From Acidothermus sp. (GTDB lineage Bacteria; Actinomycetota; Actinomycetes; Acidothermales; Acidothermaceae): DNA of 64,000 bases. The notes beneath the pieces were generated by a model. The model did no database searches, was not told the origin of the DNA, and saw only the letters and a list, made by a program, of their open reading frames with translations. Below are positions 25,668-48,681 of this stretch, piece by piece. Every line of letters begins with the position of its first letter. Within the stretch, counting starts at the first letter, position 1. The stretch is taken from contig JAIMAI010000001.1 of the NCBI GenBank assembly GCA_023512015.1, forward strand, positions 1-64,000, written 5' to 3'. A program made the position numbers and the translations under genes.

Positions 25668-25905
25668 CTGGTTCGACGACGGCACCGCCGCGGCGTCCCT
25701 ATCGACCCGCGGTGCGGCTGCTCGTCGAGGCAACAGGGAACCCGGTGTGATTCCGGGACTGCCCCGCAGCGGTGAGTGGGAACGACCGCCGTCACCGAGC
25801 ACTGGGCACCACCGCCTGGGAAGCGACGGTCAGTAGGAACTCCGGGACGACCCCGACAGGGGTGGAACCGGCCGGCCCACGAGTCCGAAGACCTGCCCGT
25901 TGCAC
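25668..25905 (+). promoter_or_regulatory. Cobalamin (B12) riboswitch upstream of metE
   Basis: aacagggaacccggtgtgattccgggactgccccgcagcggtgagtgggaacgac...gcctgggaagcgacggtcagtag...gcccacgagtccgaagacctgcc: B12-box core. Confidence 0.95.
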
Positions 25906-25947
25906 ACCGTCAGGTGTCGTTCAACCGGACTCGCGAAGGGAGAGCCC

Positions 25948-28290: not shown

Positions 28291-28407
28291 CGCAGTCGCC
28301 GTCCGCAGGGCTCGTCCCCGCCTGCTGAGATCGCGACACGCCCGACACGCCGACACGACATGTCGGTACGACCCTCGGGCTCGACCCCCACATATGGTGT
28401 CTCCTGC

Positions 28408-28590
28408 GACTGGTTCGACCCTCGGGTCGTGCCAACAGGGAACCCGGTGCGAATCCGGGACTGCCCCGCAGCGGTGAGCGGGAACGACCGCTGTCATCAA
28501 GCACTGGGCCAAGCGGCCTGGGAAGCGACAGCCAGTAGGTGACCGGCGGAGCCGGTCGAGCCCGCGAGTCCGAAGACCTGCCAGTCGCCC
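28408..28590 (+). promoter_or_regulatory. Cobalamin (B12) riboswitch upstream of nrdAB
   Basis: caacagggaacccggtgcgaatccgggactgccccgcagcggtgagcgggaacgac...gcctgggaagcgacagccagtagg...cccgcgagtccgaagacctgcc. Confidence 0.95.
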
Positions 28591-28726
28591 TGCGGGCGAG
28601 GTGTCCGCGGGAGTTGGGCCGCGAGCCGCGCGGGACGGCGACGCCGGCGAGACCGCCTTCCGGCGGTGGGTTCGGTCTGTCCTCCGCGGCACGCGTCTCG
28701 AAACCGTCGCGAGGGAGGCAGACCAG

Positions 28727-31150
28727 ATGACCATCGACGAGATCACCGCACCCGTCGATCCGGACGCCGTCGAGCACCGACCGGCTCGCCGGGTCCAGAT
28801 GCGGGTGCGCAAACGCAACGGCGACACCGAACCGGTCGACGTCAACAAAATCGTTCGGGCCGTCGAACGGTGGGCCGATGACTTGACGGACGTCGACCCC
28901 CTGCGGGTGGCGACCAAGACCATCAGCGGCTTGTACGACGGCGCGACCACCGCGGAGTTGGACCGACTCTCCATCCAGACCGCGGCCGAACTGATCGCTG
29001 AAGAGCCGCAATACTCGAAACTCGCCGCGCGACTGCTGGCGGCGTACATCGAAAAAGAAGTCCACAACCAGGGAGTGGCGTCCTTCAGCCAGTCGATCGC
29101 CCTCGGACACGCCGAAGGACTCATCGCCGACGAAGTCGCCCGCTTCGTCAAAGACAACGCCCGCAAGCTGGATTTCGCCATCGACCCTAAGGCCGATCAC
29201 CGCTTCGAGTACTTCGGACTGCGCACGGTCTACGACCGCTACCTGCTGCGGCATCCGACCAGTCGGCTCGTCATAGAAACGCCGCAGTACTTCCTCATGC
29301 GGGTCGCCTGCGGGCTCGCCGAAACCCCCGCGGAGGCGATCGGCTTCTACCGGCTCATGTCGGAGTTGGCTTACCTGCCGAGTAGTGCAACGCTCTTCAA
29401 CTCCGGAACGCGCCACCCTCAAATGTCGTCGTGCTATCTCGTGGATTCCCCGCGCGACGAACTCGATTCCATCTACACCCGCTACCACCAGGTCGCCCGC
29501 CTGTCGAAATTCGCCGGCGGCATCGGGATCGGTTTTTCCCGCGTGCGTTCCCGCGGCGCCCTCATTCGCGGCACCAACGGGTATTCCAACGGGATCGTGC
29601 CGTTCCTCAAGACGCTCGACGCATCGGTGGCGGCCGTGAACCAAGGCGGACGCCGTAAGGGTGCCGCCTGCGTGTATCTGGAACCATGGCACCCCGACAT
29701 CGAAGAGTTCCTCGAATTACGGGACAACACCGGCGAGGAGTCACGCCGTACCTACAACCTCAACCTGGCCAACTGGATCCCCGACGAGTTCATGCGGCGC
29801 GTCGAAGCCGACGAAATGTGGTCCCTCATCGATCCGGATCAGGCACCGGAGTTGGTCGACCTGTGGGGTGCGGAGTTCGACGCCGCATACCGGAGGGCGG
29901 AAGCCGAAGGCCGCTACGTCCGGCAGGTGCGGGCTCGCGACCTGTACGCGAAGATGATGCGCACCTTGGCCGAGACCGGTAACGGCTGGATGACTTTCAA
30001 GGACGCGTGCAACGCGAAATGCAACCAGACCGGCCGCCCGGGCAACATCGTCCACCTGTCCAACCTGTGCACGGAAATCGTCGAGGTGAACAACGACGGA
30101 GAGATAGCGGTCTGCAATCTCGGTTCCATCAATCTCGCCCGCCACGTCACCGACGGCACGGTTGACTGGGAGAAGTTGCGGATCACGGTACGAACGGCGG
30201 TTCCGCTGCTGGACCGGGTCGTCGACATCAATTTCTACCCGACGCCGGAAGCGGCCCGTTCCAACGAGAAGTGGCGGCCCATCGGGCTCGGCGTGATGGG
30301 CCTGCAGGACCTGTTCTTCGCATTGCGGCTGCCGTTCGATTCCGCCGAGGCCAAGGACGTGTCGACGCGGATCGCGGAGGAGATCTACCTGACGGCGTTG
30401 GAGGTGTCGGTGGACCTCGCCGAGCGGCACGGGCCGCATCCGGCGTTCCCGGAAACTCGGGCGGCCCGTGGTGTGCTGCAGCCGGATCTGTGGGGGGTCA
30501 GCCCCTCGCAGGGTGACCGATACGCTGCTCTCAAAGAAAGAATCGCGCGGCACGGATTGCGCAACTCGCTGCTCATCGCGATCGCGCCGACGGCTACGAT
30601 CGCGTCGATTGCGGGCTGCTACGAGAGCATCGAGCCCATGGTCTCCAACCTCTTCAAGAGGGAGACCCTGTCGGGGGAGTTCCTCCAGGTCAATACCGCC
30701 CTCGTCGACGAATTGAAACGCCGGGGCCTTTGGACCAAAGAGGTGCGCGAGGCCATCAAGCGGGCCGACGGCTCGGTACAACAGATCGGGGCGCTTCCCG
30801 AGGAGGTACGCCGCCTGTTCCGCACCGCATGGGAACTTCCGCAGCGGGCGCTCATCGACCTCGCCGCGGCCCGCGGACCGTACGTGGACCAATCCCAGTC
30901 CCTCAACCTGTTCATGGCCGCACCTACGATTTCCAAGCTGTCGTCGATGTACGCCTATGCTTGGAAATCCGGCCTCAAGACCACCTACTACCTGCGGTCG
31001 CGTCCCGCGACCCGTATCCAACAGGCCACGGTGACCGTGACGTCGTCGGCAGACGTACGCTCGGTCGCCGTCCAGGCGGCTCCTTCAGCGGCGCCGTCGA
31101 GTCGTAGCTGCTCCCTGGAAAACCCCGAGACTTGTGAGGTGTGCCAATGA
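28727..31150 (+). CDS. nrdA: Class I ribonucleoside-diphosphate reductase alpha subunit
   Basis: ATP cone RVQMRVRKRNGDTEPVDVNKIVRAVERW; PQMSSCYLVDS, GGRRKGAACVYLEPWHPDIEEFLELRDN, NLCTEIVEV; C-terminal CEVCQ. Confidence 0.95.
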   Translation: MTIDEITAPVDPDAVEHRPARRVQMRVRKRNGDTEPVDVNKIVRAVERWADDLTDVDPLRVATKTISGLYDGATTAELDRLSIQTAAELIAEEPQYSKLAARLLAAYIEKEVHNQGVASFSQSIALGHAEGLIADEVARFVKDNARKLDFAIDPKADHRFEYFGLRTVYDRYLLRHPTSRLVIETPQYFLMRVACGLAETPAEAIGFYRLMSELAYLPSSATLFNSGTRHPQMSSCYLVDSPRDELDSIYTRYHQVARLSKFAGGIGIGFSRVRSRGALIRGTNGYSNGIVPFLKTLDASVAAVNQGGRRKGAACVYLEPWHPDIEEFLELRDNTGEESRRTYNLNLANWIPDEFMRRVEADEMWSLIDPDQAPELVDLWGAEFDAAYRRAEAEGRYVRQVRARDLYAKMMRTLAETGNGWMTFKDACNAKCNQTGRPGNIVHLSNLCTEIVEVNNDGEIAVCNLGSINLARHVTDGTVDWEKLRITVRTAVPLLDRVVDINFYPTPEAARSNEKWRPIGLGVMGLQDLFFALRLPFDSAEAKDVSTRIAEEIYLTALEVSVDLAERHGPHPAFPETRAARGVLQPDLWGVSPSQGDRYAALKERIARHGLRNSLLIAIAPTATIASIAGCYESIEPMVSNLFKRETLSGEFLQVNTALVDELKRRGLWTKEVREAIKRADGSVQQIGALPEEVRRLFRTAWELPQRALIDLAAARGPYVDQSQSLNLFMAAPTISKLSSMYAYAWKSGLKTTYYLRSRPATRIQQATVTVTSSADVRSVAVQAAPSAAPSSRSCSLENPETCEVCQ

Positions 31151-34940: not shown

Positions 34941-35129
34941 ACTCGCACTGAGAAGGCGGTACACGCTGAAGAGGACGTCTCTGCGCACTCGTCTCGACAC
35001 GAATTGCCGCTGCAGCATGAAGACGATGAGGCAGAGTCTAGGTGGTGGACCTCACTCGAAAAAGATCACCATCTTCTCCAGCAGGGCACGTTTGAGCAAA
35101 GACCGCGGACTGGGAGGAGCCCTTGCGAA

Positions 35130-36008
35130 TCACCCCGGAATCTCACCCACAGGAAGGAAGTCACCCTGCTCGCCATCGCGCAGGCTGACGTGCTCCAGGC
35201 GCCACTGATCAACCCTACGCAAATCAGCAAGCGTCAGTTCTAAGTCTGCTACAGCTTCGCAAGCGTCGAGCGCGATTTCCATGGCAACGTCGGGCTCGCC
35301 ATACGCATTGTCGAAGAGATCGCGCAGCCGTACAGCGACACGCTCCGCCGCCTCACGCGCCTCTATGCCACCCTCAGTGGCGTCGTAAACAACCGACACT
35401 GAAAGCGCATAGGGCTCCCCATCGGGCGCTTCAACGTGTCGCTGCTCGCCCAAGTCGAAGAACAGCCCGACCAGGTACTTTGCGTCGGGCTCCAGAATCT
35501 TAGCGATGTGCTGCTCGACGGTGCGCCTGCCAGAACGCTTACGCAGCCGCTGCTCGAAGGCGTTGGGGAAGGATGGTCGACCGTAGCGTGCAGCAAGCCA
35601 TTGCTTCAGCACACGCTTTCCCTCAGCCGGCAACACGAGACTGTTATCTTTGACCGCGTGCTGGTCAAAGGCAGCCTTGGGCACACTGCGACGATCACAA
35701 TGCCGAAGCTCAAGAATCAAGGGAACCCCGTTGGGGTTCTCGTACGCGAGGTGAAGCCGCCTCGGGTTCTTGGCGTAGGAGAGCTGCGGGTCCGGCTTGG
35801 GATCTTTGATGACCAACTCGGCGATGATGACCTCAACGCTGAGTTCGCTCGGGTGTAACAAGTCGCAGTCATGGGTGATGACGACGACGCGATGCCCATC
35901 ATCAGCTTCAGCAACCAGGCCCAATGCAATGGCGGCATCCTGCATTAGAAGATCACCTTGTCGCCAACCCGTATCACGCGGCAGCGCCCATCGCCCCCGA
36001 TCTATCAC
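35130..36008 (-). CDS. Uncharacterised 'QGD..ITHDCDL' protein
   Basis: 292 aa; GWRQGDLLMQDAAIALGL...VVVITHDCDLLHPSELSVEVIIAELV; ATGA-type overlap with the upstream HTH gene. Confidence 0.7.
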   Translation of the reverse strand: MIDRGRWALPRDTGWRQGDLLMQDAAIALGLVAEADDGHRVVVITHDCDLLHPSELSVEVIIAELVIKDPKPDPQLSYAKNPRRLHLAYENPNGVPLILELRHCDRRSVPKAAFDQHAVKDNSLVLPAEGKRVLKQWLAARYGRPSFPNAFEQRLRKRSGRRTVEQHIAKILEPDAKYLVGLFFDLGEQRHVEAPDGEPYALSVSVVYDATEGGIEAREAAERVAVRLRDLFDNAYGEPDVAMEIALDACEAVADLELTLADLRRVDQWRLEHVSLRDGEQGDFLPVGEIPG

Positions 36009-36679
36009 TCAAGCGCCCCGGGAATAGAGACCTCGGTGCGCCAATCTTCCGAAGGCCTCGCTTTCGACTTCGCCACGCCTGAGCGAACATAAGCCGCATG
36101 CATTACTTGGGCTTCAGCGATCAGCGCTTTGACGTGCGACTGCGAAAGCTGACCAGCAGCAACGAGGTCCATCAAGGACCGACCTTCGAACACTCTCATC
36201 TTTAGCAACGCAGGCGCTCGCGCAATTCCATTCTCTCGCAAGGCGTCAGCCACATGACTGAGGACGCGAATCCGATCAAACTTTTCGCGCTCAGGCATGG
36301 CTTGGCGACCGATCCACTTATAGATCGCCTGCCGAGATACGCCGAACACAACGGCCAGATCCGCGATGGTCGGGTTCAACACTTGGCGGATATTGGCAAG
36401 GTGGTCAGACGCAGACCGCAAATCCAGGCGTTTTTCGGCCGCCCACACATCCACACGAAAGGACACGCGCGCTTCCAACATCCGGCACCAGGCCGCAACA
36501 CGAGAGAGATCGAAGACACTGCCAGTGCCTTCGATCACAAAGGCTGGGTCAATCAACGCGGAAGCTGAGGGAGAGGCAGCCCACATCGATGTGGAGGACG
36601 GCGTCAGGCGCCGGGGAGAGAGGGTTGTTGCGCACATCGCGTTCGCCTTGTCCGGCTCAGGACCATGCGCTGTGCGCAT
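36005..36679 (-). CDS. Helix-turn-helix DNA-binding protein (start may be 36637)
   Basis: PTIADLAVVFGVSRQAIYKWIGRQAMPEREKFDRI (HTH); then VFEGRSLMDLVAAGQLS. Confidence 0.72.
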   Translation of the reverse strand: MRTAHGPEPDKANAMCATTLSPRRLTPSSTSMWAASPSASALIDPAFVIEGTGSVFDLSRVAAWCRMLEARVSFRVDVWAAEKRLDLRSASDHLANIRQVLNPTIADLAVVFGVSRQAIYKWIGRQAMPEREKFDRIRVLSHVADALRENGIARAPALLKMRVFEGRSLMDLVAAGQLSQSHVKALIAEAQVMHAAYVRSGVAKSKARPSEDWRTEVSIPGALE

Positions 36680-37451
36680 GATCAGTTGTCATCGCTCGGA
36701 AAACAGATTTGATGGTTGCATGCAGCGAGAGTAGTTGTTCACGTAACGTGTCTATGTCGATCGGCATACGGTCTTCGACGAAGTGGTCCGTATCGATGAC
36801 CGCATGTGCTCGATCCTCCTTCACATCGAACTTCGGATTGGTCTTCAAGCCGCTGGGCTGAATGTCTGGCGGAAACCCCAAGGGTGAGGTCATCCTAAGC
36901 ACCCTTGCCACGAGTGTCCCCGTCGCTGAGGCAGTTTTGGTCTTAAAGACCGATTCCGTCAGTCTGTAAACTGGCTTTGGATCGAATTCAAACCCATGCA
37001 ACCCGCCAACGAGATAGTCCTCCACGCTTTCGTCGGCGCTAGGCAACACGGCATCCAGGTAGCGAAGGCCCAACCGACTGACGTGCTCAAGGGTGACCGC
37101 CTCGTGGACGGCGGCCAAACCGCGCAGCAACTCCGGAATGAACTTGTTATGTGTGTCGTAGTGGGTTGTGTGGTAGGTGATGGCCGATGGCGCCAAGATG
37201 AACCCCGAAGTACGGTCGCTGCGGGTAATGAGCCATTGACGGACGTGGGTGACCTGCGGCTCCACGGATTGTGCTCGCCCCGGCCCCGGCACAACCAGCT
37301 GCGTGATCTGCTGCAGCTCAAACAGTGGATATCCCTCGCGTCGCAGGCGATCCTGGATCTGGTCCACGTAGTTGGACATTGCCGCGACAGGGTTGAAGTG
37401 CGCCTGCGCAAGGGCGTAGTACACCGGCGCGTTGGACATCCTCTCGCTCAC
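36657..37451 (-). CDS. TIGR04255-like (sporadically distributed, unknown function) protein
   Basis: N-terminal MSNAPVYYALAQAHFNPVAAMSNYVDQIQDRLRREGYPLFE and central ISRLGLRYLD-like segment (EHVSRLGLRYLDAV) match the TIGR04255 pattern by eye. Confidence 0.6.
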   Translation of the reverse strand: MSERMSNAPVYYALAQAHFNPVAAMSNYVDQIQDRLRREGYPLFELQQITQLVVPGPGRAQSVEPQVTHVRQWLITRSDRTSGFILAPSAITYHTTHYDTHNKFIPELLRGLAAVHEAVTLEHVSRLGLRYLDAVLPSADESVEDYLVGGLHGFEFDPKPVYRLTESVFKTKTASATGTLVARVLRMTSPLGFPPDIQPSGLKTNPKFDVKEDRAHAVIDTDHFVEDRMPIDIDTLREQLLSLHATIKSVFRAMTTDHAHSAWS

Positions 37452-37494
37452 TGGGAGGCTCCGATCATTGCGCGTTAACAGATCAGTTGTCAGT

Positions 37495-37803
37495 TTACAG
37501 CTTGGTTGACACGCTTTCCAGAGGGTTCAGCTTGGTCGGCAGGTAGGGTTTCACCGACTTGGCAAGGTCGCGCAATATCGCAAACACCGCATACATGACA
37601 AGTCGGGCTGCCGATCGATCTGCCACCACGCTTCGCCAAGCGCGCCAAGCTCGATCTCGCGCAGGCTTAGATCGCCCAGCGGCTCGGTCGTTGGCCACCC
37701 CCTGACAGGACGGAAGCGCCAGCCAGAGCGCACTGCGGCCGAAGCCAATTGCCGCGCTCACAGCGGAAACCGGCGTCGAGGCAGCGCCCGCCGAATAGCT
37801 CAC
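37495..37803 (-). pseudogene. Degraded ORF fragment
   Basis: Coherent-looking protein text switches frame (LGDLSLREIELGALGEAWWQIDRQ / RLVMYAVFAILRDLAKSV), suggesting a frameshifted remnant. Confidence 0.3.
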
Positions 37804-38281
37804 CTAACGCCAATGTGCCGCGGCGCCAGCGGGGGCGCGGCGACCCGGTGGCGACCGCCAAGCCCGCTGGGCGATGATCAGCTGTCGCGAGCCGTTTGGG
37901 TGGCCGATCGACAACCATGGTCGCCCGACGGCATCCCGGGACATCGGCGAACATCTAACCCGCGCCGTGCGCGCCGCTCTCTAGCCAGGAGCATCACGTT
38001 GAAGGGCGCAGCGCGCACAGAACGGCCTGGACCCTGTGTGGTATCGTGGATTTTTTCTGTAGTGCCGCTGACTCCCAAACGACAAGGCCCAGCCGAGGAC
38101 GGTCGGGCGCGTCACATGTCCGTGAAATGTAGTGGACCTGACGGGAAGCTATTCGAACCACCTGAGCAAGCTAAAGGGCCTTCTGCGGCAGCCTTAGGGG
38201 CCTAGACGTGAACGACCTGGCAAGGACCTCAAGCTTCGCTGCAAGGTCCGCCCCCTCGCGCAGTTGCGTGCAACCACCTGC

Positions 38282-39349
38282 CTACTGACGCGAGTAACGG
38301 CGGTAGCGCGCCTGAAGCCTCGCTGCGACGGCCGGGTCCATGCCCGCGGGAGGGGCTGCAGTACCGCCAGACGCAATCAGGGCCTTAGCGTACTCGCGGC
38401 GCTCTGGCACCACCAAGCGCTCGACCCACGCGGCAAGCTTCTCGTTTGGCGCGAGCTGCTTGCCATCCCGCTTGCTCGGCTGGCCGTCGACCGGCTTCCT
38501 GGCCGTCTTGAGAACCTCGACGAGCTGGTCAGATCCATACAACGAAGAGAATTCAACCGCGCGTCGAAGTGCGCCCTGCCAGCTGCCCAAACGGTGGCGA
38601 ATAGTTGAGACGCTTGGCAAGATCCCTTCCATCTCTGCGGCGTAAGCGATGTACTAGTTGGCGCTGGCGAGGTGGCCTACTGCACGCTCCACCTCGAGAA
38701 TGGCGTCAATGCAGTTCGCTTCGTCGAACAGATGTTGGCCAGCGATCGGCGAGCTGGGGTTTGATTGGAGACCTGCAGTCTCCAGGGCTGCATGCCACGA
38801 GCCGAAGCGGAGAACCGCAGTCTGGTGGGTTGGCCATGGTCGGCAGTCCAGAAACCTGCGGCCCCGCGCATACGCGGTGTACGCCGAGGTGGTAAGCACG
38901 CCTCCGAGTTCTTGACTCGCCGTCCGAAGACACCCAAGTACCGCTTCGTGGGTGTACTTGAGGTAGGCGGACGACGACCTATTCCGCGAGAGCCTCCTTC
39001 GACGCGCGTACTGAGGGTTGGCATCGTCGACGCCTTCGACGAGTTCCACAGGTAGTCGGAGCGCTGAGGCCACTTCGCGCGGCAGAAGGCCCTTCTCGAG
39101 CAACGCGCGAATGGCTTCGGCGTGCTCCTTCAATATCCTTCTGCGACGGGATTTCGCGGCCTTGACCTTCAGGGCAGACGCGTCATAGCCAGCCTGAACC
39201 AGGATTTGATGGACTCGTTCCCGGGTGAGTCCGAACTGCTCCCCGATCGCCTGAAGCGTCGCCCCGCTTGAGCGGAGTTGCACCATCCGGGTTACTCGTT
39301 GGTCGCGGGAGAGCCCCTCCGGATGCCTCCTTCGCCAACTGCTACCCAT
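38282..39349 (-). pseudogene. HTH plus HNH-associated-repeat DNA-binding protein interrupted by an in-frame TAG
   Basis: ORFs 38654..39349 and 38282..38632 are in the same frame, separated only by TAG at 38654-38656 and YIAYAAE. HTH GATLQAIGEQFGLTRERVHQILVQAGY; repeats WPTHQTAVLRFGSWHAALETAGL and LPSVSTIRHRLGSWQGALRRAV. Confidence 0.75.
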
Positions 39350-41294
39350 AAACGAATGAGTCGACCAGGGGTCGGCGCAGCTTGTAGTCGAGGGCCTGGT
39401 ACTCGGTCAGAGCAAGTCTCGAGAGGGCGTCCTGCTCCTGACGCTCTTCGTACGCCAACTCGTCGAACAGGACCTCGGCCCGTCGCTCGGCGGCAGTCCG
39501 AAGCGCGGCCTCCCGGACACTCTCGACCACGAGCATCCGGTATGGAAGGTAGTCAAACGGGTCCTGGATCTTGTCCTTAGAGGCGCGCTTGGCGACATCA
39601 ACGAACTCGGGGCGACCCACGTAGACCTTTACGCGACCGGTCTGCGGGTCATAGAGGGCGGCGCCAGACTCCCAGTCCTCGTCTACGGGCACGATGTCTC
39701 GGATGAACCCGGTAGCGCGTGGAAAACGCACGTACACAGGCAGCATCACGAAGTAGCCCCCTGCGCGGACAGTGACCTCTTCCCGGCCCTCGGCTTCGTC
39801 GGCCTGTATCGTCAAGAGGAGCTCCCCGATTCCGTGCGTCGGTGGCTCGGGAACTTCAAAGGCTGACAGACGAACTCCCCGAAGGACTCCGCTACGGTCG
39901 GCTTCGAGTTCTACGGTTGTCCCGACGGGAATCTTCGCCGTGTCGAACCACACTTTGATTGTCCGCGTCTTGCCTGCCCCGACGAATATGCGGTTGTAGG
40001 CAAAGGCGATCCCATCCTCCACGGGCGGGATTGGCATCTCCGTCGGCGGCTCCGGCGGAATCGGTTCCTCCCCTTTCGGCTCGGCCTCCTTCGTTGGCCG
40101 ACCCTCAGGCGCCTCGATATCCCCGAAGTCTTCGAGCTTGACCGCCTCGTTGATGAGGCGTGCAAGGTCGAGCAGATGACGACCCATGTCCGTACTGAGC
40201 TTCTTCTTTCTTTCCTTCGCTTCCAGCGCTGCGAGGACGGAACCAAGCTCCGCATCCAAGAACTGGTAGATCGCCTCGACAAGAGGGTGGTCTGGGTTGA
40301 GGCCGCTCCGATCTGCCTCATAGATGAGCTGTGCCTCCTCGTCCGCCTGCTCGTCAGCCTCTCGCTGTGCCTGCTCAATCCCATCGATCCGGAGCTCCCC
40401 GAAGAGTTGCCGATGCGCCGGGTAGGTCTGGAGCTTCGTACCGAGGGACACCTCATACGCCGCGCGCTCACCTCGAATCAGGATCCCGAAGCGCCGCGTC
40501 TGCCGGCTCAGGCCGCCCCCTTTGATTGGCTCCTTGGCGGCTCTCGCCCAGATTGAGCCCACGAAGTCAGCGATCTCGACCTTCTTCTCAGCGATGAGTT
40601 CTTCTCCCTTCGGGGAGGAGAAGCGGACTCGCCGGGGTAGTGCATCGCCGAACTCGAATACGACGTCTCGATTTGGATCCATCAGGACGGGGCGCACCTG
40701 GACCGAGTTCTCGATCTGCTCCATCAACTTCGGGAAGGTGAACTGGTGAGGCTTCGTCGCAGCGAGCGGACGAAGCGGGATCGCTACCCTCGTCCCCGTT
40801 CGCGACGTGATCCCGATCTCCTTCCGCAGCGCATCTGTCACAGGGGTATCGCTCTTCACGATTGCCATGCCATCGGTGGGATGGAAGATCGCTTTCGTGT
40901 AGACGGCGACGCCATCCTTGAGGGCGACGGTCTCGACCGTGCTGACGCCCATGGCGTTGAAGGCCTCGCGGATTCCACGGTGGAAGAATGCGCGCTTCGC
41001 TCCTGGCTCCGTTTCGGCGCCGACCCGTTTCAGCCGCTTACGCACCTCCTCGGTGACGAGCCCATCCCCGTCGTCCGTAACGGTGAGCTCCATCAACCCG
41101 GGGTCATAGCGGATGTGGATTCGTCCTGCGTCTGGCTCTCTGTCCCGGATTGCCCTACGGGTGATCGCCTCGTCGGCGTTCGAGACCGCCTCGGCAATCA
41201 CGTGGCCGAAGCTCGTGATGTTGTTCTTCGGTGTGTGGATGTAGTAACGGGGGTCGAATTCGTAGCTTTCGTACTCAAGGACGGTAGAGCTCAT
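39342..41294 (-). CDS. GHKL (HSP90/MutL/MORC-like) ATPase domain protein
   Basis: FGHVIAEAVSNADEAI (N box), VTDDGDGLVTEEVRKRLKRVGAETEPG (DxGxG), TGTRVAIPL; 650 aa, intact. Confidence 0.8.
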   Translation of the reverse strand: MSSTVLEYESYEFDPRYYIHTPKNNITSFGHVIAEAVSNADEAITRRAIRDREPDAGRIHIRYDPGLMELTVTDDGDGLVTEEVRKRLKRVGAETEPGAKRAFFHRGIREAFNAMGVSTVETVALKDGVAVYTKAIFHPTDGMAIVKSDTPVTDALRKEIGITSRTGTRVAIPLRPLAATKPHQFTFPKLMEQIENSVQVRPVLMDPNRDVVFEFGDALPRRVRFSSPKGEELIAEKKVEIADFVGSIWARAAKEPIKGGGLSRQTRRFGILIRGERAAYEVSLGTKLQTYPAHRQLFGELRIDGIEQAQREADEQADEEAQLIYEADRSGLNPDHPLVEAIYQFLDAELGSVLAALEAKERKKKLSTDMGRHLLDLARLINEAVKLEDFGDIEAPEGRPTKEAEPKGEEPIPPEPPTEMPIPPVEDGIAFAYNRIFVGAGKTRTIKVWFDTAKIPVGTTVELEADRSGVLRGVRLSAFEVPEPPTHGIGELLLTIQADEAEGREEVTVRAGGYFVMLPVYVRFPRATGFIRDIVPVDEDWESGAALYDPQTGRVKVYVGRPEFVDVAKRASKDKIQDPFDYLPYRMLVVESVREAALRTAAERRAEVLFDELAYEERQEQDALSRLALTEYQALDYKLRRPLVDSFVYG

Positions 41295-42306
41295 CGCCTG
41301 TTCTCCTTCCCACTCGATCTTGAGCTAAGGACGGCCGCAATCGCCTCCTCCTCCGATACAAATGGCAGTACCTCGGGGTTACGCAGCTCAGCGACTTTCA
41401 GCAGGTACTCCACGACCTCTCCCTTATCGATCCGCCGTAGCTCCTTCGTGCGCGCATCAAGGGCGCTCGCGATCCTGCGTGCATCCGTGGTGGGGGGAAG
41501 CCGGAGTGCGCGAAAGAGCTCGTCGCCCTTGGTCGCGGCAACCGAGCCCGTCTCTAGGTAGGTCAGATAGGCAGGCGAATTCTCGATACGCTGAGCGAGA
41601 CGGAAGGCGCCCGTCTTGTAGCTTTCGGACGCGTCGACCTGCACGGCAAGCTTGGCTGGCCGCTGCTCGAGCTCCTGCCGGTCGGTCTCGGTCAAGGTGA
41701 GACGTTCCGAGAGCAGTCCGCACTCGCGTGCCCCCGTCATCGCAGCCTTGACGGCCTCGACATCGGGAAATTCTGGGCGGTGGCGGTAGGCACAAAGACC
41801 GCCGGAAACCTGTGGAACGCGGTTTCGACAAGCGCACCCCCATCCGTTACGCGGCCTTCATCCTCGCGGGCAGCGATACAGATGGTGACGAGGATGGCCG
41901 GCTCAGTGCCCCGGTAGGTCTCGGGCGCTGGCGCGAGACGGCGAACGAGCTCCACGTCCTCGTTAGTAACCCCCGCCTTGTCCAGCCCTCCGTCGTTGAT
42001 TCGCGCTTTGACGACTCCGGACCGGCCGGCCTCCAAAGCGGCCCGCCGTACCCCCTTCTTCGACTTGGCGCGCGCCTGCTTCCCGACGCGGGTGATGACG
42101 CCGTCGGCATCGAGGCGCCGGAGTGACGCCGTGAAAGTGTCGGGGTTCGGGAGCGCTGTATCGGCCCAGCGCATGGCGTTTGGGAAAGCATGCTAGCTCG
42201 CCAGAAACAAGTCCCGTTCGTTCACCTCGCGCTGCTCACCGCCGAGAGCGGCAAGCATGGCGAGCACGAGTTGATCCTTCGATAGCGTGTCGATCGAGGG
42301 ACTCAT
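41291..42306 (-). pseudogene. Winged-helix-like protein; gene split by an in-frame TAG (42193-42195) and a -1 shift at 41764-41770
   Basis: Frame reads MSPSIDTLSKDQLVLAMLAALGGEQREVNERDLFLAS*HAFPNAMRWADTALPNPDTF...VPTATAQNFP; the -1 frame continues DVEAVKAAMTGARECGLLSERLTL... Confidence 0.72.
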
Positions 42307-43104
42307 CGCTTCTGCTCCGCCATATCGCCAGGAAGACCGAGCTCAGCGGCACGAGCAGTGAGGTGGTATTCGACCTCAAGACCGCGCCGAGTCCGGCCCA
42401 GAAGGCCAAGATCGGAGAGGCGCCCCAAGGCGCCAGCACGCATCGTCGAGATGAACTTCTTCCAGGCCGGGTATTGGTATGCGAGATCGTCGTCGAGCTC
42501 AGTGCGCGAGCGGCCGGTGGCCACTAAGCTCGCCACTGCGACGAGAAAACTGGTACTCGCCGCTCCGGTAGCGGCGGAGATGGTCGAGGAAGAACTTCGC
42601 CTCCTCCACGCTGAAAGTGCTGTCTGCTCCTTCCTCGTGGTCGAAAACGGGGTTCTCGAAGCCCGCCCACTCAGCACCGCTCTTTGTCAGGGAGACATGC
42701 GCGGCTTGACTCACTCCGTCGAACCTGACGAAACCGAGAAAGGCCGCTCCACCTTCGGGCAGCCCCCCTTTTCTCGGCACGCCGAGGAACTGGTTGACGT
42801 ACCGATGGGCGCTTGCCGGATCGTCCGTAGGGAAGGCAGTAGCCCAGCGCATCCCGTGCACACGCCGAGACTCGTCGTCCGAGCGGCGGAGCGCCTCGCG
42901 CAGCTCGACCGCCACTCTAGTCGCCTCCTCGTGCCATTGGGCCGCCGGAACAGTGTGGTCGCGCCCACTGACGAGGTGGGCCAGGACGCGCACCCCCGCC
43001 GCTATTGGAAGGACGCGGTTCGTCTGACCCCAGAGAGCACGAGTTGGCTCATTGAAGGGCTCCGATGCTGGAAACACGTCTGGCAGCTCAACCCTCCGAA
43101 CCAT
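42303..43104 (-). pseudogene. Uncharacterised protein with C-terminal winged-helix-like region; +1 frameshift at a T4 run (42546-42549)
   Basis: Upstream frame ...EEAKFFLDHLRRYRSGEYQF; skipping one T continues LVAVASLVATGRSRTELDDDLAYQYPAWKKFISTMRAGALGRLSDLGLL. Confidence 0.7.
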
Positions 43105-43159
43105 CGCCCGCCAGGTCCCGGTCTCCTGAATCCCCCCGCCTCTCGCATGCGCGGGGCGA

Positions 43160-43478
43160 TCACTCGCCGATGGCCTGCGGGCGCTCGTAGACCCCCGGCA
43201 CGACGCGCTGCAGCGCCTGCACCGCGACCATCGGTACCCCGCCCTGCGGGCGCATGTCCTGCCTCCCGCTGGGCGGACTCCTCGAGGGCCAGTTGGTTCC
43301 ACGCAGCCACCTCGAGGAAATGCTGGGGGCTCCTATAATTCCCTAGAACCACAGCCTGGGTGATGGCCTCATAAGGCTTCGCTTCTATACTGATCGCCAG
43401 AATTGCAATAGTATCTTTCCCCAGGATGACGTCAACACCTATCTCCTTGCTGCCACTGGACGGGGCACGAAGTCTGTG
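43160..43478 (-). pseudogene. N-terminally truncated, frameshifted fragment of a possible PD-(D/E)xK nuclease
   Basis: RAPSSGSKEIGVDVILGKDTIAILAISIEAKPYEAITQAVVLGNYRSPQHFLEVAAWNQLALEESAQREA / DMRPQGGVPMVAVQALQRVVPGVYERPQAIGE; no upstream start before TGA. Confidence 0.5.
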
Positions 43479-43498
43479 TCACTGGGGGCGCTAGAGTC

Positions 43499-43512
43499 CG
43501 AACGTACGTTCG
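43499..43512. promoter_or_regulatory. 14-bp perfect palindrome CGAACGTACGTTCG in the divergent intergenic region
   Basis: Self-complementary sequence 35 bp upstream of the methyltransferase ATG. Confidence 0.5.
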
Positions 43513-43547
43513 CGACCCGACGCCTCCCCCTCAGGAGGTAGAATCAC

Positions 43548-45215
43548 ATGCGTGTAAGCTACCCGGCTCAGGAGGTGCTCCCCCTGCTTGCTGCCGCCGA
43601 GGCACGGGAAGACCTGGTTCCTCGCGACCTTGCGGAGGTCGTTTCGCTCGCCGTGGCCCTCGGGGCGATCGATGTAGGCGGCCCTCTTTCCTCGGAGGAG
43701 CGGCGACTCATCCGTCTGGCCTCGCATCCGCCCACGTCCTTCGAAGCGGTTCGGGAGTCGATCCTTCAGGGTCTCGACCCGCTTGGTGACGCCATCTGCG
43801 CCTTGAGGTCCAGAGCGGAGCGCCGTGACCTCGGTGCTTTCTACACCCCGCCAACCGTCGTGAAGAACATGGTCACTTGGGCCCTAAAGCGCGAACCGCT
43901 GCGTTTTGTGGACCCCGGATGCGGAAGCGGTCGGTTCGCAGCCGAAGCCATCCGGCAGAACCCCGACCTTGAGATCGTAGCGGTCGACGTGGATCCCCTT
44001 GCCACGCTCGCCTGTCGAGCCGTCCTCGCTACTCTCGGCGCCAAGCGGACCCTGGTGATCAACCGCGACTACACGAGCATGTCCTTCCCCGCCTCGGCTG
44101 GAACGACCGCATTCGTGGGCAACCCTCCGTACGTGCGACACCATCGGTTGACGGCTGCGCAGAAGGCCAAGGCCAAACGGGCGGCCGCCGAGCTTGGCAT
44201 CGACCTCTCAGGTCTTGCTGGTCTGCATGTCCACTTCTTCCTCGCGACTCTGCGCCATGCGCGCCCCGGAGACGTGGGCTGCTTCATCACTAGCTCTGAG
44301 TGGTTGGATGTCTCCTACGGCGCTGCCCTCCGGATCGCCCTCCTCGACGGGATGGGTGGAGTAGGGCTCCACCTGCTCGCCCCGGAGGTCGCGGCGTTCG
44401 ACGACGCCATGACGACAGCGGTCATCACCTGCTTCGAGGTGGGCAAGACTTCGACAGGCATCCGCATGCGCTCCGCCGCCACTATCTCGGCACTCGGCGA
44501 CCTCGATAGTGGAGGGAGAATCGTTCCCCTCTCTCGCCTGCGGGAGGCCCGGCGTTGGACCCCGCTCTTCAGGGCGGGAGACCGGCAGGGACGTGCGGGC
44601 CATGTACGGCTCGGGGAGATCGTTCGTGTTAGCCGGGGTGCGGTCACAGGAGCGAACCGGTTCTTCGTCATGTCCGAGAAGGACGCGCGGAGGCTCGGCC
44701 TCGAGAAGTACGTCGTGCCGGCCCTGACAAGTGCTCAGGAGGTACTGAGCGCGGAAGGTATCGTCCGCGCTGACGCGTCAAGGCGAGTGTTCCTCGATCC
44801 TCCTGCAACGGTGGAGCTTGAATCCCCGGAACATGAGGCGCTGCGCCGCTACCTCGCAGCGGGTGATCAGGAAGGCGTTCCGAAGTCTTACATATGCAGC
44901 CACCGGCACCCATGGTGGCGTGTCGGCGCGAAGTACCCTCCCATCGTGGCGACCTATATGGCCCGGCAGCCGCCGGCCTTCGCCCTCAACCCCGATGGGC
45001 TGGCCATCCTCAACGTCCTGCACGGGCTCTTCCCAAAGGTCCCTCTAGACCAAGATCAGCTGCTTGGCCTGGTCCGGTACCTCAACGACCACAGAGAGGA
45101 GCTCCGAGGCCGCGGTCGGACGTACCAGGGGGGGCTGGAGAAGTTCGAGCCGCGTGAGATGGAGGCCATCGAGGTCCCGGCTCCGTCGGAGCTTGGCCGA
45201 TACGCCAACCACTGA
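43548..45215 (+). CDS. N6-adenine-specific DNA methyltransferase of a XamI-type R-M system
   Basis: FVDPGCGSGRFAAEAI (SAM motif I), AFVGNPPYVRHH (NPPY); start codon after AGGAGGT. Confidence 0.88.
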   Translation: MRVSYPAQEVLPLLAAAEAREDLVPRDLAEVVSLAVALGAIDVGGPLSSEERRLIRLASHPPTSFEAVRESILQGLDPLGDAICALRSRAERRDLGAFYTPPTVVKNMVTWALKREPLRFVDPGCGSGRFAAEAIRQNPDLEIVAVDVDPLATLACRAVLATLGAKRTLVINRDYTSMSFPASAGTTAFVGNPPYVRHHRLTAAQKAKAKRAAAELGIDLSGLAGLHVHFFLATLRHARPGDVGCFITSSEWLDVSYGAALRIALLDGMGGVGLHLLAPEVAAFDDAMTTAVITCFEVGKTSTGIRMRSAATISALGDLDSGGRIVPLSRLREARRWTPLFRAGDRQGRAGHVRLGEIVRVSRGAVTGANRFFVMSEKDARRLGLEKYVVPALTSAQEVLSAEGIVRADASRRVFLDPPATVELESPEHEALRRYLAAGDQEGVPKSYICSHRHPWWRVGAKYPPIVATYMARQPPAFALNPDGLAILNVLHGLFPKVPLDQDQLLGLVRYLNDHREELRGRGRTYQGGLEKFEPREMEAIEVPAPSELGRYANH

Positions 45216-46126
45216 TGAGCCGACGCCGACCGCTCCAACCGCCGAAGTGGACGGAAGAGCAGCTTGAGACCGGTCGCCAAGAAGCTCTGGCGGCGTTCAT
45301 CCGGGAGCGGGGTCAGGAAGGGACCCGGGCCTACCGAGAAGCCTTCGACGAGATCGAGCCTGTCGTGAGCCGGCTGTTTGAGGCCACGAGCGACCTGCGG
45401 AACTTCCGGGGAGAGGTCCTCCGCGAGGATCCCAAGCTCCTGCCCGCGGCACGCTACCTGGCCGGCCCGCCCATCAGCGCCGACGACCTCGAAACGTTGG
45501 TTGGAGGGCGCCTGGGCCGACGGGTACCGGACCCGGAGGCGGCCAAGCGGGTGGCAGACGTTCTCAGGTCCGCCTGGGATCCGATCCGCTTCCCGTGGCT
45601 TGGGCAGAACCGAGGCCCGCGGGCCAGCGAGCGAGCGGCGGCGATCCGGTGGACCGCCGGCATCTGGGCCATCGAGCGGCTTCGCACCCTTCGCAGGACG
45701 GAGTCCAGCCGGAGGCAGGAGGCGGCTGTGGCAGAGGCCCTACACCGGGCCGGATACAAGCACGAGCCGAGGCTCCGCGTGATGGACACGCTTGACGCTC
45801 TACCGCGAGGCAGCTTCGCACGTGAGGTCAGCCTGGCCGGATCGAAGTGCGACATCCCGGTGCGGCTGTATGATGGTCGCCTTCTTGCACTGGAGTGCAA
45901 GGTTTCGAACAGTGCGTTGAACAGTGTCAAACGCCTGATCCGGGAGACTGGCGGGAAGGCTCGAGCGTGGCGGAACGACTTCGGGCTCCAGGTGATCACT
46001 GGCGCCGTCCTCGCCGGGGTATACAAGCTCGTGAACCTGCTCGACGCTCAAGAGAACTACGGGATCGCTATCTTCTGGGAGCAAGACCTGCGCCCGCTGC
46101 AGGAGTTCGTGAAAGCAGCACAATAG
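45215..46126 (+). CDS. XamI-family type II restriction endonuclease
   Basis: PPKWTEEQLETGRQEALAAFIRERGQEGTRAYREAFDE, ARYLAGPPISADDLETL, SKCDIPVRLYDGRLLALECKVSNSALNSVKRL (D...ExK); start overlaps the methyltransferase stop. Confidence 0.82.
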   Translation: MSRRRPLQPPKWTEEQLETGRQEALAAFIRERGQEGTRAYREAFDEIEPVVSRLFEATSDLRNFRGEVLREDPKLLPAARYLAGPPISADDLETLVGGRLGRRVPDPEAAKRVADVLRSAWDPIRFPWLGQNRGPRASERAAAIRWTAGIWAIERLRTLRRTESSRRQEAAVAEALHRAGYKHEPRLRVMDTLDALPRGSFAREVSLAGSKCDIPVRLYDGRLLALECKVSNSALNSVKRLIRETGGKARAWRNDFGLQVITGAVLAGVYKLVNLLDAQENYGIAIFWEQDLRPLQEFVKAAQ

Positions 46127-46437
46127 CAGGGTTCTCCCCATCCCTTTCGAGATCTTCAATCGCCCAACGTCCACGCGACGGCCACCCAGCGGCCACGAAG
46201 GCTCAAGGCAACTTCCGCCGCAGATCCGCCCCAAGGTGTTCGGTCTCCGGGAAGCCGAGGTGGGAATTTCGACTTCCTTGTCCGATTTTGTGGCTCGGCG
46301 TGCCGAATGATAAGTAGGAGGTAAGGGTCGCGATCGGCCGCGGGTGCGCAGGGCTCAAGATCAGTCCCACGTCTGCGGCCCGTCGGGTTCATGGAGACGG
46401 GCGTGCTCGCGCGAGGCCGCGCACCGCGCGATGTGGG

Positions 46438-46465
46438 GAGCTCCCTGTGGCGAGCTCCCTGTGGC
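46438..46465. repeat. 14-bp tandem duplication GAGCTCCCTGTGGC x2
   Basis: gagctccctgtggcgagctccctgtggc in the non-coding region before the recombinase. Confidence 0.8.
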
Positions 46466-46815
46466 AAGCTGGGTGTCCGGTTTCCGCTCCTGAAAGAGCC
46501 TGAAGTGGCTGGTCAGACGACGTAGACGGCTTCCGACACCCCTACGGGTGAGGGGTGATGCGTTCGCTCCTCGCCCACCTAAGGTGAGCTCGTCGCTCAA
46601 CCTCACCAACCTCTCGTCTCGATCCTTCCCCCCACGCCACGTATGAGGCCAACAGATCGGACCCGCTCGATGCCGTCGGTGTCTGGGGTTAGGCTGGAGG
46701 TCCGGCGCCACCGTGAGCCGCCGGAATCCGGCAGGCTTCGCGCGTTTGCGCGTGCGCTGGTCGAGCTGGCGCTTCAGTTGAGGAACGACGCCGAGAAGGA
46801 ACGCCCAGGGACGCC

Positions 46816-48438
46816 GTGATCTACCTCCGGGTCTCCACCAGGGAGCAGGCCGCGAAGGACGAGACCGGCGAGGGGTACTCGATCCCCGCCCAGCGGGAGG
46901 GCTGTCTTCGCTACATCGCCGAGAGAGGCTGGAACGTGGGCGATGAGTTCGTCGACGCCGGCGAGTCAGCCCGGACCGCAGACCAACCTGCGCTCAAGGC
47001 CATGCTGCGCCGACTCGCCGAAGGCGACGTCGAGGCCGTGGTGGTCCACAAGATCGATCGCCTGGCCCGCTCCATCGAGGACCACGTGGCGATCAGGGCG
47101 ACGCTCCGCCGTTCCGGGGTCCAGCTGGTCTCGGTGACCGAGAACATCGAGGAGACGGCGTCTGGGCGGCTCGTGGAGGGCATCCACGCGCTCATGGCGG
47201 AGTTCTACTCGGCCAACCTGTCGAGCGAGATCCGCAAGGGCATGGACCAGAAGGCCAAGATGGACGGGTGGCCCACCCGGGCCCCGATCGGCTACCGGAA
47301 CGTCCGGGAGAAGGCAGTCGGCAAGGACATCGCCAAGGTCGTCCTCGACCCGGAGAGAGCGCTCTTGGTCCGGGAGGCGTTCCGGCTGCACGCTACCGGG
47401 GAGTATTCACTCCCCGAGCTGCAGGCCGCCTTGCACGCCAAGGGATTGACGTCGGCTTACAAGCCGGGTGCCCCGGTCGCCGTGTCGAAGCTCGCGGAGA
47501 TGCTGGCCAACCCCTTCTACGTCGGCGTCGTGGCGTGGAATGGAGTGCGGTACCCCGGCCAGCACAAGCCGCTGATCTCCGAGAGCCTGTTCTCGCGGGT
47601 CCAGGACGTGCTCCGAGCCCACGACATCGCGGGCGTCCGGCAGCGCCGCCACGACCACTACCTGAAGGGCCTCCTGCACTGCGGGGAGTGCGGGAGGCGC
47701 CTCTCGCTCACCCTCGCCAAGGGCAAGTACCTGTACTTCTACTGCCTCGGTCAGCGGGGACCGTCGAAGACCGGATGCCGCGAGCCGTACGTCCTCGCCG
47801 GCGAGGCCGAGGCCGCGGTCGAGGATCTGTACTGCCGCGTGCAGCTCCCTGCGTCGTGGGTGCAGAAGCTCACCGAGGAGCTCGAAGCCGAGATCGTCGA
47901 GCGGCAGGCCGAGGCATCAGAGGGCCGCGTAGTGCTCACGAAGAAGCTCGCTCGGCTCGCCGACGAGCGGCAGAAGCTCCTGCGTGCCTTCTACGCGAAC
48001 GCCATCCCGCTGGAGCTCCTCAAGGCCGAGCAGGATCGGATCAGCCGCGAGGAGCAGGCTGCTCGCTCAGAGCTCGAAGTCACGGAGCAGGATCTAGCCG
48101 GATGGCAGGATGTCCTCAACATGGCCATCCGACTCGCTGGCAACTGTCACGCCGCGTACCTCAAGGCACGACCCAACGTCCGCCGTCGGTTCAATGAGGC
48201 CGTTCTGGATGCCGGCTACGTGAAGGATCGGAAGATTGCCCGGGCGGCGTTTACGGAGGTGTTCGCACCTCTTTTCTCTCGCCCGAGTTCGAATAAGCCG
48301 CTGAAAGTGGAGGTGCCGGGAATCGAACCCGGGTCCTTCGACGTGGAGAGAGGGCTTCTCCGGGCGCAGCCTGCAAGCGTCCTACTCGGCTCAGGCGGTC
48401 TAGCAGGCGAGCCGCCTCGACGAGCCCAGCTGCTGTGA
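46816..48438 (+). CDS. Large serine recombinase (resolvase/recombinase/zinc ribbon); C-terminal ~44 codons overlap antisense ssrA
   Basis: IYLRVSTREQAAKDETGEGYSIPAQREGCLRYIAERGW; HKIDRLARS; recombinase domain; LLHCGECGRRLSLTL zinc ribbon; coiled coil. Confidence 0.92.
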   Translation: MIYLRVSTREQAAKDETGEGYSIPAQREGCLRYIAERGWNVGDEFVDAGESARTADQPALKAMLRRLAEGDVEAVVVHKIDRLARSIEDHVAIRATLRRSGVQLVSVTENIEETASGRLVEGIHALMAEFYSANLSSEIRKGMDQKAKMDGWPTRAPIGYRNVREKAVGKDIAKVVLDPERALLVREAFRLHATGEYSLPELQAALHAKGLTSAYKPGAPVAVSKLAEMLANPFYVGVVAWNGVRYPGQHKPLISESLFSRVQDVLRAHDIAGVRQRRHDHYLKGLLHCGECGRRLSLTLAKGKYLYFYCLGQRGPSKTGCREPYVLAGEAEAAVEDLYCRVQLPASWVQKLTEELEAEIVERQAEASEGRVVLTKKLARLADERQKLLRAFYANAIPLELLKAEQDRISREEQAARSELEVTEQDLAGWQDVLNMAIRLAGNCHAAYLKARPNVRRRFNEAVLDAGYVKDRKIARAAFTEVFAPLFSRPSSNKPLKVEVPGIEPGSFDVERGLLRAQPASVLLGSGGLAGEPPRRAQLL

Positions 48439-48681
48439 GCTTTCCCGATAGACCCCGCAGCCGGGTCTACCGGTCGAGCCTCCTACCGATGCCAGACTCC
48501 GGGCCGGAGGCGATCCCGGGCTGACAGACTTCGGTGATCCCTTACTTATGCAGCAAGGGCGAAGTCAGCGCGACTAGTGTTGGCGCTTGTTTTTTCGCAG
48601 CGAATGGTTAACGAGATCATCGCTGCCATCCTCGGCCCGCTTCCCCTGTCTTCACGGTCGAAGTCGAGACCTGTCACCCCC
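48308..48681 (-). ncRNA. ssrA: tmRNA (ssrA), tag peptide ANTSRADFALAA
   Basis: 5' GGGGGTGACAGGTCTCGAC pairs with 3' GGACCCGGGTTCGATTCCCGGCACCTCCA (T arm + acceptor); tag ORF GCC AAC ACT AGT CGC GCT GAC TTC GCC CTT GCT GCA TAA at 48584-48546; smpB upstream. Confidence 0.94.

Follow-up and report, generated by a model that had tools for sequence, protein, structure and literature searches.

A site-specific element with a type II restriction-modification system ends exactly at the 3′ end of ssrA in Acidothermus

Results

The DNA analysed here, called the window throughout, is a 64,000-nucleotide stretch from Acidothermus sp. in which the tmRNA gene ssrA lies on the minus strand at 48307-48681 (ARAGORN; Rfam RF00023, 140.7 bits), with the tag ANTSRADFALAA. 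As an earlier note on this DNA had reported, the gene ends in CACCTCC-A-C, then TTTC, and CCA is not encoded. Core genes including smpB follow ssrA in the window, and smpB is also near ssrA in class relatives, in several of them with the S41 peptidase and ftsX genes as well. At the 3′ end of ssrA lies the gene for a large serine integrase, whose element-encoded part, 497 codons long, reaches to the att core (46816-48306, plus strand); in the integrated state the full ORF spans 46816-48438 (+), the host-derived end (48307-48438, +) being 43 codons antisense to ssrA. The three domains of the large serine integrase class of phages and genomic islands are found in this one protein, all above the Pfam cut-offs: Resolvase (PF00239, 124.5 bits), Recombinase (PF07508, 45 bits) and zinc ribbon (PF13408, 35.7 bits). 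The cargo comprises a type II DNA methyltransferase (43548-45215, +; MTase_II, E=2.9e-137), an XamI-like type II restriction endonuclease (45215-46126, +; E=2e-28), two small overlapping ORFs with no clear family match (41291-42174, −), a 650-aa protein that resembles HSP90/GHKL-type ATPases only weakly, below the curated cut-offs (39342-41294, −), and an HTH (sigma-70 region 4-like) and HNH-repeat protein (38654-39349, −). The island with this type II restriction-modification system and genes of unknown role is a site-specific element with one border precisely at the 3′ end of ssrA.

Further accessory genes, outside the island as delimited below, occupy 35130-37451 (−), namely a TIGR04255 family protein (36657-37451), its HTH-like partner (36005-36679) and an unassigned ORF (35130-36008). 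They stand in a lower-GC block (35130-37803) between the anti-sigma gene and the island, and this 35.1-37.8 kb stretch may be an older accessory insertion. Elsewhere in the window, two cobalamin riboswitches (25699-25914 and 28394-28599) are each found directly upstream of a long ORF, and the second of these ORFs (28601-31150) adjoins the ribonucleotide reductase small-subunit gene at 31141.

The integrase has relatives with 89% (L061), 70% (L062) and 57% identity, and the named ones (L062-L064) suggest an actinobacterial host. About 24 relatives adjoin the 3′ end of a tRNA or tmRNA gene, with which they are convergent. The targets are tRNA-Ile (L063, L064), tRNA-Ala (G003, G013, G015, G019, G036, G002 and others), tRNA-Arg, tRNA-Val, tRNA-Leu and tmRNA (L061, G193), and one motif, gGTTCGAxTA, recurs in the attR sites at a constant spacing from the 3′ end of the RNA. 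No relative of the integrase was found among viral contigs, and only distant ones among phage and plasmid records (about 22-31% identity among the matches listed).

The key to the borders is L062, whose contig extends beyond the integrase with no RNA gene there and has the arm twice, inverted, as AGTTCGAATA-AGTGGATCAAGGTGCTCCTAACAGGTCAC-TATTCGAACT, that is, with a spacer of 29 nucleotides around a GTG core. This uninterrupted site (L062:5145-5200, inverted TTCGAA arms) looks like an intact attP, and the contig is probably the excised or episomal form of its element. In the window, the right border proposed in the earlier note holds: sequence comparison places the attR core, GTGGA, at 48307-48311 (+), where the island abuts ssrA, and the attP left arm AGTTCGAATA is retained in attR at 48286-48295 (+). 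The left border was sought by rule, as a GTG followed 18 nt on by the inverse of the attR arm, with a shared core. Among 1050 GTG positions in the window, 38132 is the sole clear match, reading GTGGACCTGACGGGAAGC-TATTCGAACC with 9/10 arm positions (runner-up, 7/10), and its geometry was met 0 times in 300 simulated 20 kb sequences. The attL core GTGGA is thus at 38132-38136 (+), followed by the attP right arm TATTCGAACC at 38150-38159 (+), an inverted copy of the left arm with one mismatched position. When the ends are joined (48286-48306 and 38132-38159) they spell AGTTCGAATA-N29-TATTCGAACC, in which both spacer length and arm layout are those of the L062 attP. The site measures 49 bp, with AGTTCGAATA and TATTCGAACC as inverted arms of 10 bp on either side of a GTGG(A) core. 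Large serine integrases are characterised by an attP of about 50 bp that has inverted motifs and a short core identical in attP and attB, and the site, with its GTGGA core, is of this form. Only 38132 among the left borders of the window yields the L062-type geometry; the candidates 31626 and 32110, both inside the ribonucleotide reductase small-subunit gene, have the wrong spacing or core.

The same rule delimits elements in relatives. The best arms are 10/10 in G003, G036, G002, G001 and G131 and 9/10 in G087 and G013, and the resulting sizes are 13.4 kb (G003), 24.5 kb (G036), 34.4 kb (G002), 7.8 kb (G013), 31.6 kb (G087) and 47.8 kb (G131), with a 5.0-kb element at ssrA in the same-family genome G001, where no integrase of the window's family was detected beside attR. 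In L061, a different contig whose integrase is also at ssrA, the left end GTGGACCTGGAGGGACGCTATTCGAACC agrees with GTGGACCTGACGGGAAGCTATTCGAACC of the window at 24 of 28 bases. A 9/10 partner arm was not found in G131b, G233, G110, G121, G151, G089 and G075, because contigs end, islands extend beyond the sequence read or the two arms are less alike. A 1.8-kb stretch at ssrA in another genome (G012:C64, about 96.9-98.7 kb) has attL, attR and an HTH tail with no integrase match, and is possibly an internally deleted element.

Because the attP anatomy of the family, intact in L062 and recurrent in the element ends of relatives, places the left end at 38132, we read the integrated element as 38132-48306, 10,175 bp, inserted by its own large serine integrase at the last base pairs of ssrA, with a probability of about 0.92. 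On this reading the pre-insertion site is predicted to be ...gaaatgtaGTGGAggtgccggg, with CCA not encoded, and the junction of the excised circle agttcgaataagccgctgaaaGTGGAcctgacgggaagctattcgaacc. A search for the empty site found none; two same-family genomes (G001 and G002) carry unrelated DNA beyond ssrA, with none of the window's left-flank genes beside it, and the G001 orthologues of the sigma/anti-sigma genes are on a separate contig, without ssrA.

The earlier note had set the left border at TGGTGGA (35043-35049, +), and the strings it relied on are present in the window, with GTGGA both at 35045 and at 48307. It proposed a single island of about 13.3 kb, 35045-48311, containing all the accessory genes, the excision of which would restore an encoded CCA to an ssrA that had formerly adjoined the ECF sigma/anti-sigma pair. 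Joining at 35045 and 48307 would indeed spell CCA in addition to sharing a 5-bp core, and GC is lower at 35-37 kb (0.57-0.60), hence that DNA also looks accessory. However, the restored CCA is little evidence, because TGGTGGA is frequent by chance and CCA is rarely encoded in relatives. Chance alone would place the string 0.97 times in 20 kb, and 62% of simulated 20 kb sequences contain it; between 32 and 48.4 kb there are about 26 copies of GTGGA. The tmRNA genes of the 29 listed class relatives end in CCAC, then variable sequence; 25 do not encode CCA after the discriminator and four do, so CCA is not the expected state of the empty site. Moreover, AGATCACCAT stands to the right of the 35045 core where TATTCGAACY is expected, which is to say that there is no attP arm, and no further distinguishing mark was seen at that position. 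Thus 35045 has the core alone, whereas at 38132 core, spacer and inverted arm all fit, as does every other feature of the integrase family. In our judgment 35045 is very probably wrong and 38132 the true left end, and the 13.3-kb model has very little chance of being right. By attP anatomy the island shrinks to 10.2 kb, the 35.1-37.8 kb genes, including the TIGR04255 protein, fall outside it, and before the insertion ssrA did not adjoin the ECF sigma/anti-sigma pair.

The sporadic genes of the 35-37.5 kb stretch, and its lower GC, could also be taken to mean that the locus is composite, with the active 10.2-kb element (38132-48306) beside the remnant (35.0-38.1 kb) of an older ssrA-associated island, in the manner of the tandem Dehalococcoides ssrA islands. 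The attR-like arms at ssrA in several relatives imply that the site is used repeatedly, which would suit such a history; but the remnant has no integrase, and no arm pair fits a border at 35045 or a flank left of 38132. We consider a composite locus unlikely, if less so than the single larger island. The usual tDNA island, made by a tyrosine integrase and marked by a displaced ssrA fragment at its far end, is the least probable arrangement of all. Copies of the ssrA 3′ end, 25-26 bp long and away from ssrA, do exist in two class relatives (G055 and G019), but in the window the ssrA-derived stretches elsewhere are at most 12 bp, with no 3′-terminal repeat, and the serine recombinase is the only integrase found in the island. 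The copies themselves (G055:C81:12668-12692; G019:C104:12187-12212) are perfect or near-perfect and typical of tyrosine-integrase ssrA islands.

With the 38132-48306 element so delimited, the two att sites can be compared. Across ten mapped elements the attP arm has its match in the T-arm of the RNA gene, which in attB lies 5 bp nearer to the core; when the attP right arm and the attB T-arm are aligned on the core, mean identity is 0.74 at a shift of 5 and at most 0.41 at every other shift tested. In the window the T-arm motif TCGAACC (48323-48329, +) is 16 nt from the core start, vs 21 nt for its counterpart in attP. A displacement of 5 bp between attP and attB is known for the zinc-domain motif of the Listeria LI integrase (PMC3783163), and on the model of that work TCGAACC is proposed as the zinc-domain motif of the attB half-site. 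Here the motif nearer the centre in attB was seen in the RNA-gene half only; the half away from the RNA gene had no arm motif at any shift tested. We infer that the integrase reads the TCGAACC of the T-arm as one attB half-site, contacted by its zinc domain as in other serine integrases, and integration is predicted to depend on TTCGAACC and on the 5-bp offset. The shared core, GTGG or GTGC, is complementary to positions 71-74 of the tRNA-like end, and the RNA gene therefore keeps its discriminator base after integration. Crossover would take place at about these positions, presumably at a dinucleotide within the core, so that attP need supply only a few bases (CAC) to keep the tmRNA intact, and CCA would be added post-transcriptionally. 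After integration CCA is either supplied by attP, as in the G036 and G012 type, or left to CCA addition, as in the window.

The position of attP has a consequence for the integrase gene itself. We surveyed the frame at 12 loci with an integrase match reaching attR (the window, L061, L063, L064, G003, G015, G053, G036, G002, G011, G013 and G019), and in 12 of 12 it runs through the core in one and the same phase; a more distant recombinase, at ssrA in G013, is an exception, and in the wider set the G161a integrase stops before the RNA gene. Integration would thus replace the element-encoded end of the protein by an ssrA-antisense end. In the window the integrated C-terminus has 43 ssrA-antisense codons, vs 21 element codons in the circle form, where joining the ends adds the in-frame tail VDLTGSYSNHLSKLKGLLRQP (38132-38194, +). 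In other elements the tail is longer: left ends start at the core, in frame, and run for about 90-166 codons in G036, G002, G003, G087, G131 and G012 and, with weaker arms, in G193. Loci with in-frame C-terminal segments at the attL core are L106-L108, L111-L116, L152-L157 and L167-L169. These tails resemble one another across elements and bear an HTH where scanned, with matches above the Pfam cut-offs in G036, G002 and G003; the left ends of G212 and G193, which fit the HTH-tail rule with weaker arms, were counted as supporting only. The window's own clade is without the HTH module. The simplest reading is that in several relatives the circular element would encode an integrase ending in an HTH module, which is lost on integration. 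No contiguous gene for an integrase with an HTH tail was found in the phage and plasmid collections, and for that reason the loss of the tail is still deduced from joined ends.

Discussion

The work on this locus corrects both the gene content of the island and its predicted empty site. A more general lesson is that CCA restoration can mislead where a serine integrase uses a core of 4-5 bp, which island finders that rely on repeats would overlook. According to the 2015 Islander paper, no serine integrase was known to target tRNA genes. In the present family about 24 integrases target tRNA or tmRNA genes, and they follow a readable rule, the attP arm being a copy of the T-arm displaced by 5 bp. 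This rule makes target choice testable and could serve integration tools, since the motif is present in every tRNA gene. If functional, the tail swap would give bacteria a simple form of directionality control.

The window does not show the features of an Islander-type tDNA island: no tyrosine integrase was found in the island, and no displaced tDNA 3′ fragment, that is, no ssrA 3′-terminal repeat beyond the 5-bp core. Closer in description are the ssrA genomic islands of Dehalococcoides, in which DsiB, a serine recombinase of about 540 codons at the ssrA edge, has a 3′ end that overlaps att and reads into ssrA, with full function on the circle raised as a possibility (PMC3146451). The serine integrase gene of the window likewise overlaps att at ssrA and reads into it. 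In the Dehalococcoides islands 20 bp of ssrA form a direct repeat and a further small recombinase, DsiA, is present (PMC3146451), whereas the window has a 5-bp core with inverted 10-bp arms and no such repeat; among the island ORFs scanned, some of the small ones included, there was no second Resolvase domain. Serine-integrase elements in tRNA genes were called rare in the 2011 AICE survey, with Mycobacterium AICEs in tRNA-Leu and phage phiRSM1 in tRNA-Ser as cases (PMC3218068). The recombinase class and the tRNA gene target are shared with these; the T-arm recognition model and the split integrase are not described in the parts of that survey consulted.

For the attachment sites, the nearest parallel is the Listeria LI/A118 integrase, with resolvase, recombinase and zinc-ribbon domains and an attP of about 50 bp (PMC3783163). 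Domain architecture, attP length and a motif 5 bp closer in attB are common to both, but in the window the attB motif comes from the T-arm of a structural RNA gene and is on one side only. For the gene, it is the archaeal suicidal (SSV-type) integrases, tyrosine recombinases with attP within the gene, which integration splits into inactive halves, an arrangement said to be exclusive to archaea (PMC8371274). The window resembles them in having attP inside the integrase ORF (a 21-codon tail in its clade, longer HTH-type tails in relatives); unlike them, the bacterial serine recombinases would keep the catalytic part and lose the C-terminal end only, and we presume that the integrase is active and that the element can be excised. 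We would put at even odds a wider proposal, that a family of actinobacterial serine integrases takes the T-arm, conserved in tRNA and tmRNA genes, for its zinc-domain half-site and has attP within the integrase gene, so that a C-terminal tail, in several lineages an HTH module, is swapped for a short RNA-antisense tail. Such a swap would be a built-in switch between the integrating and the integrated state, and these integrases would be the bacterial, serine-type counterpart of the suicidal integrases of archaea.
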